From assembly GCA_026418015.1 (NCBI GenBank), contig JAOACE010000013.1:310001-374000 (forward strand): a stretch of DNA of 64,000 nt, read 5' to 3'. This DNA is from Leptospiraceae bacterium (lineage in GTDB: Bacteria; Spirochaetota; Leptospiria; Leptospirales; Leptonemataceae). Positions 53,381 through 57,686 of the stretch are shown in pieces. The first letter of the stretch is position 1. Each line of letters starts with the position of its first letter. The position numbers and the translations under genes are program-made. A model generated the notes under the pieces. The model was not told the origin of the DNA, made no database searches, and saw only the letters and a program-made list of their open reading frames with translations.

Positions 53381-54385
53381 ATGACTATTAAATATCTTAA
53401 AAAATCCTTGTTTTTATTTTTATTTCCTGTTAGTTTGTTTAGTTTAGAAAAACCCAATTTTGATTTTAACAAATGGTTTTATACGATTTCTCCATTTTGG
53501 GGAGAAGGCTATAATGCAAATCAAATTCCTTTTCGACTTATAGAATATAAAAACGACAAGCCAGTTCTACATAGTGGAAGTAAAAGCTTCTCTGGGAGTG
53601 GTAAAGGTTCTGGTGTTGAATTTATGGCATTTAATCCCGACTGGCAAATACTCTATGTTGGTTTCTACTTTCCTATGTATCCCAACAAAGATAGCACTTC
53701 TTTGTATAATTATATTCAAAATATAAAAACAGAAGTAACTGGTCATGTCTTTTCTCTGCGATATAAATTTTTGAAATACGAAAAATCAGAAATCTTTACA
53801 GGAATGTCGTATTTTCAAGGAAATGGTCCGCATGATTATTCTATCGTAAACAATTTTGTTCTGTATAGCTACTCTACCAATCAGTTTGTTCAAATCCCCC
53901 AAGTGAACGTAAAGGTTTATGTGGAAGATCCCAACCCTTATGTAGGAATCTCTTATAAACTTCCCATACAAAACTGGAAAATCGATGCAATTTATTCTTA
54001 TGGTTTTGAACGCGTAAATACAGATTTACAGACTAGTATAGCAAGAACTGTTGATTCTAACAACGCTTTACAAAATTTTGATTCATTATCCATATTACAA
54101 TATAACATAGAAAATAGCAATATTTTACCTTTGAATTATACGATTCGAAAAAAATATTTTGCAAATCGATTCGCTTTATCTTTATTTATGGACTATCGAA
54201 GATTTGTTTCCTTAAGAATAAACCTAAGAAGAGATCTAACGTTTAATCGATGGGTATCTAATGCTGTATTTAACCTTATCTTTTCTCAGTATATGGGACT
54301 ATCTTTTTTTTACGAATATAGCGAAAGAAGTGTGGGTACTATTAGATACTGGTTAATCGGACCAACTTTTGTATTTCAATTTTGA
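53381..54385 (+). CDS. Predicted outer-membrane beta-barrel protein
   Basis: 334 residues with a signal peptide (KSLFLFLFPVSLFS). The mature part has many amphipathic strands with aromatic girdles (WQILYVGFYFPMYP, VFSLRYKFLKYE, NVKVYVEDPNPYVGISYKL, WKIDAIYSYGFERV, FALSLFMDYRRF) and ends in TIRYWLIGPTFVFQF, with a C-terminal Phe. A barrel of about 12-14 strands fits. An early Ser/Gly run (SGSKSFSGSGKGSG) may be a loop. Substrate unknown. Confidence 0.72.
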   Translation: MTIKYLKKSLFLFLFPVSLFSLEKPNFDFNKWFYTISPFWGEGYNANQIPFRLIEYKNDKPVLHSGSKSFSGSGKGSGVEFMAFNPDWQILYVGFYFPMYPNKDSTSLYNYIQNIKTEVTGHVFSLRYKFLKYEKSEIFTGMSYFQGNGPHDYSIVNNFVLYSYSTNQFVQIPQVNVKVYVEDPNPYVGISYKLPIQNWKIDAIYSYGFERVNTDLQTSIARTVDSNNALQNFDSLSILQYNIENSNILPLNYTIRKKYFANRFALSLFMDYRRFVSLRINLRRDLTFNRWVSNAVFNLIFSQYMGLSFFYEYSERSVGTIRYWLIGPTFVFQF

Positions 54386-54423: not shown

Positions 54424-54906
54424 TCATTTTTTTTTATAAAAATGATCAATTATTTGTATAATTTCTTTTTCGTATTTTTTATAAGTGTTCTCCTCCCCAA
54501 AAAATTCTACTAAATAGATTTTTTTAGGATCAGTTGGCTTTATAGAAAAAGCAAGCCCATAAATATAATGATTCTCTTTTATTTGAGCTCTGGTTTTTAC
54601 AAATTCATACTCTTTTTTAGATGTTTTTTCTAAGATTTCGTATCCACTCTCTTCTAGATAACTTAATATGCTCTCTTTCCAAACTTGGATGGAATTCGAA
54701 AATGGTTCGTTTTTTTCTTCTCTTATTGCTATTCTGACACCTTCTGGGGTAATATATTTTTCTAAATAGCATTCTTTCTCATCACGAACTAATTTTGATG
54801 AACATTTATTTGTATATTCTGCAAAAATTGAACTTTCTTTCGGTTGATTCGTTATACAATAACTGATAAAAATTAACACGATAATGAGATAGATTTTACT
54901 TTTCAT
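54424..54906 (-). CDS. Lipoprotein matching the C-terminal domain of the DUF4349 gene
   Basis: 160 residues; lipoprotein signal IYLIIVLIFISYC. The mature domain is alpha/beta. It can be aligned by eye with the last ~105 residues of the 55497-56729 product: EGVRIAIREEKNEP against SGVGIRVGFIENEP, a Trp soon after, a Y-x-IL-x-K step, and a final VEFFGEENTYKKYEKEI against INEIYYPEKEYFEKYKKTI. So it looks like a free-standing copy of that domain. Third gene of the operon; its start overlaps the second gene by eleven bases. Function unknown. Confidence 0.68.
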   Translation of the reverse strand: MKSKIYLIIVLIFISYCITNQPKESSIFAEYTNKCSSKLVRDEKECYLEKYITPEGVRIAIREEKNEPFSNSIQVWKESILSYLEESGYEILEKTSKKEYEFVKTRAQIKENHYIYGLAFSIKPTDPKKIYLVEFFGEENTYKKYEKEIIQIIDHFYKKK

Positions 54907-55495
54907 GGAATCTCTCCAAAAAATTAAAAATTCCTAATTTAGATACCCAGTAAGGATAGGGTTTTTTAGGTAAACTTCCTTTTTCTATGTTGATAAATTG
55001 AATCTCTACATTCATAGAATTTGCTAACTCTAAGTAGTAATTATAATTTCCTTTTAATTCTTCTAATTCTTGTATTACTTTGGATATTTCTTGTTCCATT
55101 TCTAATGTTTGAACTAACGAAGCTTCCTGTGTTAATTGATTTAGCTGCTGAAGATATTGCTCTTTTACTTTTATACTTACTTGTAATGATAAGATTTGAT
55201 CCGAATAATCCACCGAAGAAAAATTCTGAGATACTATGATTCCTCGATTATTTAGAAAATTTAATATTTTTTCTTTAGTAATCCTCTTGGGAAAGCTCAA
55301 TGCTATTCTTTGATTACTAAACGAAGCAATATATCCATTTTGTTCATTCGTAAACTTTAATATTTCTCTTCGAACCAGTTCCGGAGAAGATACCCTAATC
55401 GTTAAGCTAATTTTTGTATGAATATAATCCTGCTTTAAATCCTTCGGAAAAAGAAAAAAGGCAGTGAACAAAAATAAAATCATAAATCGATGCAT
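54896..55495 (-). CDS. Secreted DUF4349-like protein
   Basis: About 199 residues from ATG 55495 (signal RFMILFLFTAFFLFPKD); the frame opens 39 bases earlier inside the upstream gene. The mature part has the DUF4349 layout: a first strand-helix-strand unit (ISLTIRVSSPELVRREILKFTNEQNGYIAS), a second (IALSFPKRITKEKILNFLNNRGIIVS), then a long coiled-coil of about 55 residues (QLTQEASLVQTLEMEQEISKVIQELEEL) and a closing strand (MNVEIQFINIEKG). It lacks the C-terminal membrane span seen in many DUF4349 proteins. Directly follows the larger DUF4349 gene. Confidence 0.7.
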   Translation of the reverse strand: MHRFMILFLFTAFFLFPKDLKQDYIHTKISLTIRVSSPELVRREILKFTNEQNGYIASFSNQRIALSFPKRITKEKILNFLNNRGIIVSQNFSSVDYSDQILSLQVSIKVKEQYLQQLNQLTQEASLVQTLEMEQEISKVIQELEELKGNYNYYLELANSMNVEIQFINIEKGSLPKKPYPYWVSKLGIFNFLERFHEK

Positions 55496-55496
55496 A

Positions 55497-56729
55497 TTAA
55501 AATAACTCCTCGATGGTTTTTTTATACTTTTCAAAATACTCTTTTTCTGGATAATAGATCTCGTTTATAACTACATAAGATTTATCTCGCGAATGCTTTG
55601 TCCAAATACCTATTGTATAGTAATATTGATTTACACCATCTATAATTTCTGTATGCAGATAATTTAATTTCGATCCTTTTTTTTCCATCAAGATATTGTA
55701 TTTTCTTTTAAGAAATTCTTCTTTTAATGCCAACAACCAAAAATCTTTCGAGCCAACAGGTTCATTTTCGATAAAACCCACGCGAATACCAACACCAGAA
55801 GAATTATAAATTATATAATCATCATTTTTTATAAATTTTTCTTTATTGTTAAAAAAATCAGAAGGGATTTTTATAGAATCAAAAATTTCTTTTGCTACAA
55901 ACGATTCGTAAAAACTTAGATCAGTGTTAAAAATAGTTCTTTTTAATGGATCGATTTTTCTTATCCAATCAAAAGGGGATATTTTTACAATAGAATTTTC
56001 TTCCCTCTCTTTGGTTGATAAATAAACCTCGATCGTAGAATAGGTAGCTTTGTCTTTTAAAAATTTTTGCTTTGCTTCTAACTCTTCTATTTCTGCTGTT
56101 AGACGATTGATTTCTTTTAGAATTTTCGCTTTTTGTTTTACATCTTTAACATTCTTAAAGAGTTCATATAGTCTATCGCGAAGTTTTTTTAATGTATTCA
56201 ACCGCGATTCCACATCTTGAAGTTTTTTTGTAACATCTTCTGCTCTAATTTGATAAGAAGAGATATAACCGATTTTGAATAAATCATCTAATGCATTAAA
56301 AAATTTATCTACGGGAACTCTTATTTTAATTCGTGCTTCGTTTCTTTCTTGATGGATCTGGGAAGATTCAATATATCCTTTATAGGAATCGATGATAGAT
56401 TTAATGTTATCAATTGCATGTTCTATCCTTCGAACTTGTATGTTTAATTGTGATTCATAAATAATTTGTCTTTTTGTAGTATTTTCTTGATTATAAATTG
56501 CCTCTTGTTGTTGAATAACACTTTTTTGTTCTACGTCTAAGTTATCTTGCGAAGAATCGCGCATACTTTCTACACTTTTGTAACGTTTTACAATTGCTGG
56601 AATCTGAGAAACATCTTCTGCTTCGGGATAAGATTTTGGTTCTTTTTTTACGAGATAACCACTACAAGAAATAAAATATAGTACGATAACCAATATTAAC
56701 AGAAGATAATTTTTCACAAAAATAATCAT
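55497..56729 (-). CDS. DUF4349 lipoprotein with fused C-terminal domain
   Basis: 410 residues; lipoprotein signal YLLLILVIVLYFISCSG. Residues 80-250 are the DUF4349 domain: ESQLNIQVRRIEHAIDNIKSII, GYIESSQIHQ, ARIKIRVPVDKFFNALDDL, a coiled-coil (LQDVESRLNTLKKLRDRLYELFKNV to AEIEELEAKQKFLKDKA) and YSTIEVYLS. Residues 300-410 form an extra alpha/beta domain that resembles the product of the third gene in this operon. ATG 56729 is the open start. A GTG at 56717 would give a shorter signal and has a TTGACT upstream. DUF4349 proteins are envelope-associated, role unknown. Confidence 0.78.
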   Translation of the reverse strand: MIIFVKNYLLLILVIVLYFISCSGYLVKKEPKSYPEAEDVSQIPAIVKRYKSVESMRDSSQDNLDVEQKSVIQQQEAIYNQENTTKRQIIYESQLNIQVRRIEHAIDNIKSIIDSYKGYIESSQIHQERNEARIKIRVPVDKFFNALDDLFKIGYISSYQIRAEDVTKKLQDVESRLNTLKKLRDRLYELFKNVKDVKQKAKILKEINRLTAEIEELEAKQKFLKDKATYSTIEVYLSTKEREENSIVKISPFDWIRKIDPLKRTIFNTDLSFYESFVAKEIFDSIKIPSDFFNNKEKFIKNDDYIIYNSSGVGIRVGFIENEPVGSKDFWLLALKEEFLKRKYNILMEKKGSKLNYLHTEIIDGVNQYYYTIGIWTKHSRDKSYVVINEIYYPEKEYFEKYKKTIEELF

Positions 56730-56771: not shown

Positions 56772-56806
56772 TAAAAAAAGTTTCTTATGGAAACCCATAA
56801 GAAACT
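56772..56806 (-). terminator. Rho-independent terminator of the lipid operon
   Basis: On the minus strand AGTTTCTTATGG, four-base loop, CCATAAGAAACT (56806 down to 56779), followed by a run of seven T. It lies 19 bases after the stop of the last gene of the minus-strand lipid operon. Confidence 0.88.
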
Positions 56807-56825: not shown

Positions 56826-57686
56826 CTAAGAATTTATAAACTGAATAAATTCTTGTTTTTTATTTTCGTCAACAAAATAAGGAGAAACCTTGTGAATAAT
56901 TTCTTGTGCAATCTGTGGTGATGTTAGTTGTTTTTTTAAAGCTTGTTTGTAGATGTCTAAATTTCCGTTATATTGTTCAAATATAGCAGCGATCTTAGAA
57001 AAATACCCTTTTTGCAGCATTGTTTTAAATATATCTTCTACTTGTTTTTGTTGAATTGTTGGCATTAATTTTTGAGTAAAGTTGGGTTCTAATTCATTTA
57101 CAACATCTGTTAAAAAATTTATATCGAAATGCTGCATTAAAGAAATGATTTGTTTCTCTTGCATAAACCGAACAATATTAGCGCACATATAAGGTGTAAG
57201 AGCCATGCTAGCAATTTTCGCAATGATAAAATCTGGCAAGATAGAAGCATTTTTTGCAAGTCGTTCAAAAACTATATCGAGAACTACTTTTAAATTTGTT
57301 TCGAAGTAATGAATATTTTTATAAAGAATGTAAAAATCATTCTTATTTGCTTCGAATTCTTCTTTCGATATACCAAAAGAATTATGCAAATATCCATATA
57401 TTTCTTGATCATTTAATCGATTGCTTATAGACGAAATAAAACTATGATAATCTTTAAATTGAAATTTTGGTGCTTCTCCTAACAAACCTTTTAAAAAGAA
57501 AGGAATAATTCCATCGACTGTGTACAAATAATCTAACACATTTTTGATGTTTTTTTCATTCTTCTTCATAAACAGATGAAAATATTTTTCGTACAAAGCC
57601 TTATTTTGCACTCTCTCTATCTCGTTATGTTTGTAATTTTTTACTAATTGTTCAATTTGTTTTGCACTATCTCTATGAAATGGCAT
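56826..57686 (-). CDS. Helical cytosolic protein ending the lipid operon, unknown
   Basis: 286 residues, no signal, no membrane span. Almost wholly helical, with repeating hydrophobic spacing (FLKGLLGEAPKFQFKDYHSF, LPDFIIAKIASMALTPYMCANIVRFM, FLTDVVNELEPNFTQKLMPTI), perhaps ARM/HEAT-like. I know no family. It is 24 bases downstream of the CoA-transferase gene and shares its terminator. A lipid-droplet or polyester-associated role would be a guess from context only. Confidence 0.65.
   Translation of the reverse strand: MPFHRDSAKQIEQLVKNYKHNEIERVQNKALYEKYFHLFMKKNEKNIKNVLDYLYTVDGIIPFFLKGLLGEAPKFQFKDYHSFISSISNRLNDQEIYGYLHNSFGISKEEFEANKNDFYILYKNIHYFETNLKVVLDIVFERLAKNASILPDFIIAKIASMALTPYMCANIVRFMQEKQIISLMQHFDINFLTDVVNELEPNFTQKLMPTIQQKQVEDIFKTMLQKGYFSKIAAIFEQYNGNLDIYKQALKKQLTSPQIAQEIIHKVSPYFVDENKKQEFIQFINS

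Follow-up and report, generated by a model that had tools for sequence, protein, structure and literature searches.

For the DUF4349 family (PF14257), the searched literature that mentions the domain gives no function. In members of this family a lipobox or signal peptide precedes the domain, as it does in genes 1 and 2 of the locus described here, but in relatives, proteins with DUF4349 as their only domain (e.g. L076:6264-7010) carry a hydrophobic, membrane-like tail at the end, after a GPLGW[VI] motif. In the position of this tail, gene 1 has a PsbP/DcrB-like domain and gene 2 simply stops. With the PsbP/DcrB (DUF1795)/Mog1/Eag-chaperone fold, gene 3 and the C-terminal domain of gene 1 share the predicted topology and the best PDB matches, but here the fold is coupled to DUF4349 and occurs in duplicate, and it shows no significant Pfam match and a TM-score of about 0.5. 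The nearest described architecture that we found is PA1624 of Pseudomonas aeruginosa, a periplasmic protein of two domains, one of which is Mog1p/PsbP-like and resembles DcrB (PMC7716261). Its partner domain, however, is OmpA-like instead of DUF4349, and the order of the domains is reversed. The spirochaete flagellar collar is likewise periplasmic, and the locus adjoins the collar gene flbB in one clade, but the flagellar context is missing in most genomes that carry the locus. As far as PMC11750108 says, no product of the triplet is among the named collar proteins (FlbB and FlcA-D).

The window, i.e. the whole stretch of 64,000 nucleotides that was analysed, contains three adjacent genes on the minus strand, all of which were confirmed as ORFs. 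Gene 1 (55497..56729, minus strand) encodes a lipoprotein of 410 aa with a signal peptide and the lipobox FISC22, a disordered linker (residues 23-84), a DUF4349 domain (87-245), the junction SPFxWI (251-260), and a PsbP/DcrB-like C-terminal domain (C-domain) of ~125 residues (~284-410). Gene 2 (54896..55495, minus strand) codes for a secreted DUF4349 domain alone (199 aa), which stops at a W[IV]xxL junction motif; a signal peptide is present, and there is no cysteine where the lipobox would be expected. Gene 3 (54424..54906, minus strand) encodes a lipoprotein of 160 aa (lipobox ISYC17) with a PsbP/DcrB-like domain, and it duplicates the C-domain-coding segment of gene 1 (55497..55874, minus strand). 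The lipobox cysteines of genes 1 and 3 are invariant in relatives. A single base separates the stop of gene 1 from the ATG of gene 2, and 11 bases are common to genes 2 and 3. The triplet looks like a transcription unit of its own, because a terminator-like hairpin of 12 pairs followed by a T run (56779..56806, minus strand) stands between it and the co-directional gene upstream, and because the downstream neighbour has the opposite orientation. Three such hairpins were found against 0.7 expected, and all of them, including this one, are consensus matches only. The convergent neighbour (53381-54385) is a secreted protein of 334 aa, probably a beta-barrel; the same neighbour occurs in a second genome (L059:4511-5518), where the gene order beyond is similar. 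The upstream gene (56826-57686) encodes a protein of 286 aa in which a repeat weakly resembles MgtE_N (E 5e-4, below the cut-off); a transporter domain is absent.

Both gene 1 (E 3.7e-37, 128.2 bits, residues 87-245) and gene 2 (E 5.6e-10, 39.4 bits) exceed the curated cut-off of 27.7 bits for DUF4349. An earlier note, made from the DNA letters, had read the first as a lipoprotein with DUF4349 plus a C-terminal domain and the second as a secreted DUF4349-like domain alone, and the Pfam matches, the FISC22 lipobox, and the signal peptide of gene 2 agree with both readings. For gene 3 and the C-terminus of gene 1, Pfam returned no family match in the window. Profile-profile comparisons (hhalign), in which each alignment was made solely from relatives of one gene, matched gene 3 to residues ~284-410 of gene 1 (99.0%, E 6.3e-18) and gene 2 to the DUF4349 profile of gene 1 (98.2%, E 4.3e-14), whereas the negative control of gene 2 against gene 3 gave 2.2%. 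These comparisons bear out what the note had seen by eye, namely that gene 3 is a lipoprotein homologous to the C-terminus of gene 1 and that the two modules occur once fused and once separate. The match between genes 1 and 2 covers the junction motif, which reads SPFxWIxxL in the former and W[IV]xxL in the latter; the split point is therefore a domain boundary. F, N, and P are invariant and Y and E nearly invariant in the columns conserved in both the gene 3 and the gene 1 C-domain sets, and the residues previously picked by eye (GV, NEP, W, Y, E) include conserved columns. That the resemblance arose by chance, or reflects a recent local duplication without lasting importance, is extremely improbable in view of the hhalign E-value of 6e-18, the clean control, and the conservation over 24 genera.

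Beyond this internal homology, a sequence search of the PDB with the gene 1 and gene 3 profiles yielded chance-like matches only, and NCBIfam contained no meaningful match for the triplet. Neither DcrB (PF08786) nor PsbP (PF01789) matched gene 3 of the window. The best Pfam matches in relatives were sub-threshold (PsbP E 0.0068, DcrB E 0.0074), as they reached 16.8-16.9 bits against cut-offs of 27.2 for DcrB and 23.5 for PsbP, and by sequence these proteins thus fall outside both families. AlphaFold2 modelled the DUF4349 domain and the C-domain of gene 1 mostly with a pLDDT of about 85-95 and the linker as disordered. The predicted DUF4349 fold is b-a-b-b-a-b, with two long helices that form a helical hairpin and a final strand. 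For the C-domain, the topology b-a-b-b-b-b-a is predicted, and the elements of the gene 3 model (pLDDT 89, pTM 0.77) have the same order; the predicted folds of the two thus agree, as would be expected if the earlier alignment by eye was correct. In Foldseek searches against the PDB, gene 1 matched, among others, 3lyd, DcrB, SciW, LpqN, and PsbP, which were assigned to the C-domain from the targets and the alignment lengths, and gene 3 matched PsbP, DcrB, SciW, EagT6, and Mog1. The Foldseek probability was 1.00 for PsbP (2xb3), DcrB (6e8a), SciW, and EagT6 at TM-scores of about 0.4-0.55. According to these models, gene 3 and the C-domain of gene 1 would match the PsbP/DcrB/Mog1 fold, at the fold level only. 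Because the best E-values are modest (4e-4 and 8e-4) and the TM-score is about 0.5, this match is no proof of common ancestry or common activity. It does agree with the sub-threshold PsbP and DcrB matches in relatives, which had been obtained before the Foldseek search.

The modelled similarity to DcrB, SciW/EagT6, LpqN, and PsbP might mean that the triplet resembles DcrB in function and contributes to membrane homeostasis or to the maturation of lipoproteins. Its C-domains would then be binders of lipids or signal segments at the inner membrane. DcrB, a lipoprotein of the inner membrane, has been linked to membrane fluidity (PMC9487459), and Eag chaperones shield transmembrane segments (PMC7773334). 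However, this fold is common to proteins of unrelated roles, and the Pfam matches to DcrB and PsbP, at E about 0.007, are below the cut-offs and confined to relatives, with none in the window. We thus consider a role of this kind unlikely.

The distribution of the triplet was analysed in 48 genomes of the class and in 393 genomes of the phylum, which we take to be the Spirochaetota of the GTDB. Within the class, an HMM of gene 3 matched 12 genomes with exactly two matches each, and in all 12 one match was gene 3 and the other the C-terminus of the adjacent gene 1 (E 1e-4 to 2e-12 for the C-terminus). An HMM of both C-domain sets found 35 of the 393 phylum genomes, from 24 genera and 12 families, and the two matches per genome were almost always about 1.1 kb apart. 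The set that the earlier note had proposed to look for in Leptospirales thus recurs in relatives, but it is spread over the phylum instead of being confined to that order. Carriers that could be named by matching contigs were Leptospiraceae and Spirochaetaceae (7 loci, all from MAGs). Among the 35 carriers, the order gene 1-gene 2-gene 3 was found in every locus where it could be checked: 28 have three separate genes, in three genes 2 and 3 are fused, one (L160) is irregular, and three loci are cut by contig ends. The genes commonly overlap by 4 bases in relatives. Both copies were present wherever the contig could be read, and no carrier had a single copy on an uninterrupted contig. The operon can nevertheless be lost, as no DUF4349 gene was detected in a close relative from the window's own genus (G002, 95% complete). 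Flanking genes vary between genera; they include queC/queD-like genes and the beta-barrel gene in the genus of the window, and a ubiE-like gene in genus g2. Outside the clade with flagellar neighbours described below, they were set aside as functional clues because they are genus-specific. In one genome (L063:4931-6166), the gene for a putative lipoprotein of 411 aa, which matches nothing in Pfam or NCBIfam, overlaps the start of gene 1.

Phylogenetic analyses illuminated the origin of the two copies. In a maximum likelihood tree, 34 gene 3 domains and 33 gene 1 C-domains are separated by one branch (support 99/94, 100% of bootstraps), and the DUF4349 tree shows the same split, with a support of 90 for the gene 1 domains and 96 for gene 2. 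These clean splits reflect one ancient duplication that predates the divergence of the carrier families and of which both copies were retained. The pairwise identities of the four domains over 30 genomes correlate at 0.88-0.92, as co-inheritance predicts, and any genes that are inherited together should show such a correlation. In L060:7312-8352 (346 aa; genome G001) and in L159:5635-6627 (330 aa; G237), genes 2 and 3 form one fused gene, and this is partially so, by the available evidence, in L153 (G062), where the reading frame stays open over the gene 2/gene 3 junction up to the contig end. Each of these genomes is nested among split relatives: the other two carriers in the genus of G001 are split, G062 stands beside the split G108 (100/95), and G237 groups with the split G297 in family f45. 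The fusions, all of which lack the signal peptide and lipobox of gene 3, are thus most simply explained as independent re-fusions. On these sequence data, genes 2 and 3 have fused orthologues elsewhere, which is stronger Rosetta-stone evidence than that offered by gene 1, which is a paralogue and therefore not, on its own, a classical Rosetta stone. The Rosetta-stone argument put forward in the earlier note is partly supported: the three fusions, together with the gene order and membership in 35 genomes, strengthen the view that products 2 and 3 are partners. At one further locus (L160:5723-6486, G361), gene 2 is shorter in the region of the helical hairpin and is frame-shifted relative to gene 3, which has no lipobox. 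This locus represents either a decayed gene 2-gene 3 fusion or an assembly error.

As the three genes stay side by side in 35 of the 393 phylum genomes, their products probably function as a single, hitherto undescribed membrane-anchored complex; with reasonable though limited confidence, we picture it as an obligate periplasmic, lipid-anchored heteromer of two homologous halves. Each half would consist of a DUF4349 unit (a b-a-b-b-a-b sheet plus the long helical hairpin) connected with a PsbP/DcrB-like unit, half one being the single chain of gene 1 and half two being made up jointly of products 2 and 3. Both would derive from the ancient duplication of the DUF4349-C-domain unit, the second copy being held as two genes. 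The three independent fusions suggest that products 2 and 3 pair 1:1, and the strict co-retention of both copies suggests that this pair forms a pseudo-dimer with gene 1; the halves would assemble at the membrane, within the periplasm. Alternatively, gene 1 and genes 2 and 3 may be functionally separate paralogues that share an operon and make no contact, for example as condition-specific versions. Sequence and synteny cannot tell contact from shared regulation, but both copies occur in all 35 genomes where the contig is readable and no single-copy genome was found on an uninterrupted contig, and we regard such independence as improbable. The heteromeric complex, if it exists, may serve at the membrane as a chaperone or scaffold without enzymatic activity. 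More speculatively, its PsbP-like units could hold hydrophobic or membrane segments, by analogy with the Eag chaperones of the same fold, and in at least one clade it may serve the assembly of periplasmic flagella. For DUF4349, which lacks a described function in the searched literature, the locus provides a strict partner domain, a predicted fold of this partner, and a lead from gene context. The maintenance of single-chain and two-chain halves over about 24 genera, with repeated re-fusion, makes the triplet a clear natural example of the way in which duplicated subunits may turn into an obligate heteromer.

The lead from gene context comes from families f12, f31, and f41, in which the operon lies downstream of, and is co-directional with, the Pfam-annotated genes fliG-fliH-fliI-fliJ-SLT (where present)-flbB. 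The identity of flbB is supported by NCBIfam collar_FlbB matches of 147-177 bits (cut-off 110). A clear flbB was found in 30 triplet genomes, and in 8 of them the operon has this position directly behind flagellar genes, which hints at a tie to periplasmic flagella. The triplet could thus be a clade-specific part of the flagellar collar or motor, located by the FlbB ring or by a peptidoglycan opening made by the SLT protein, and the collar of Borrelia burgdorferi has unassigned densities, one of which is perhaps transmembrane or lipidated (PMC11750108). However, all 8 genomes belong to these three families, and elsewhere the triplet and flbB are far apart or on different contigs: in the window genome they are on C16 and C18, respectively, and in the single-contig chromosome of G050 they are about 0.9 Mb apart. 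Moreover, most flagellated genomes of the phylum have no triplet. The presence of FliM does not really differ between genomes with the triplet (32 of 35) and those without (306 of 358), and it carries no information, since almost every genome is flagellated. In G237 (L159; 1.5 Mb, 96% complete), no FliM or FlbB match was detected, but the triplet is retained, with genes 2 and 3 fused. The triplet is thus not encoded with flagellar genes wherever it is present, and given the unlinked majority of lineages, the uninformative FliM distribution, and G237, the flagellar link is a one-clade lead and not a general property. A collar or motor part therefore seems doubtful to us. Guarded, too, is our view of the wider idea that the pseudo-symmetric DUF4349-PsbP-like heteromer, with its two lipoprotein anchors, would be an undescribed periplasmic machine of Spirochaetota that helps to build or hold the periplasmic flagella or the surrounding envelope in its carriers. 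Should the flagellar link prove true, the triplet would be a further, lipid-anchored part of spirochaete motors, in which unassigned densities remain. Some relatives in the genus of G237 (G171, G265, and G317) have weak FliM matches only. In L152:3159-3734 and L142:8553-9158, the gene between fliJ and flbB encodes a small SLT transglycosylase without a visible signal peptide, and its position suggests a flagellar peptidoglycan cutter.
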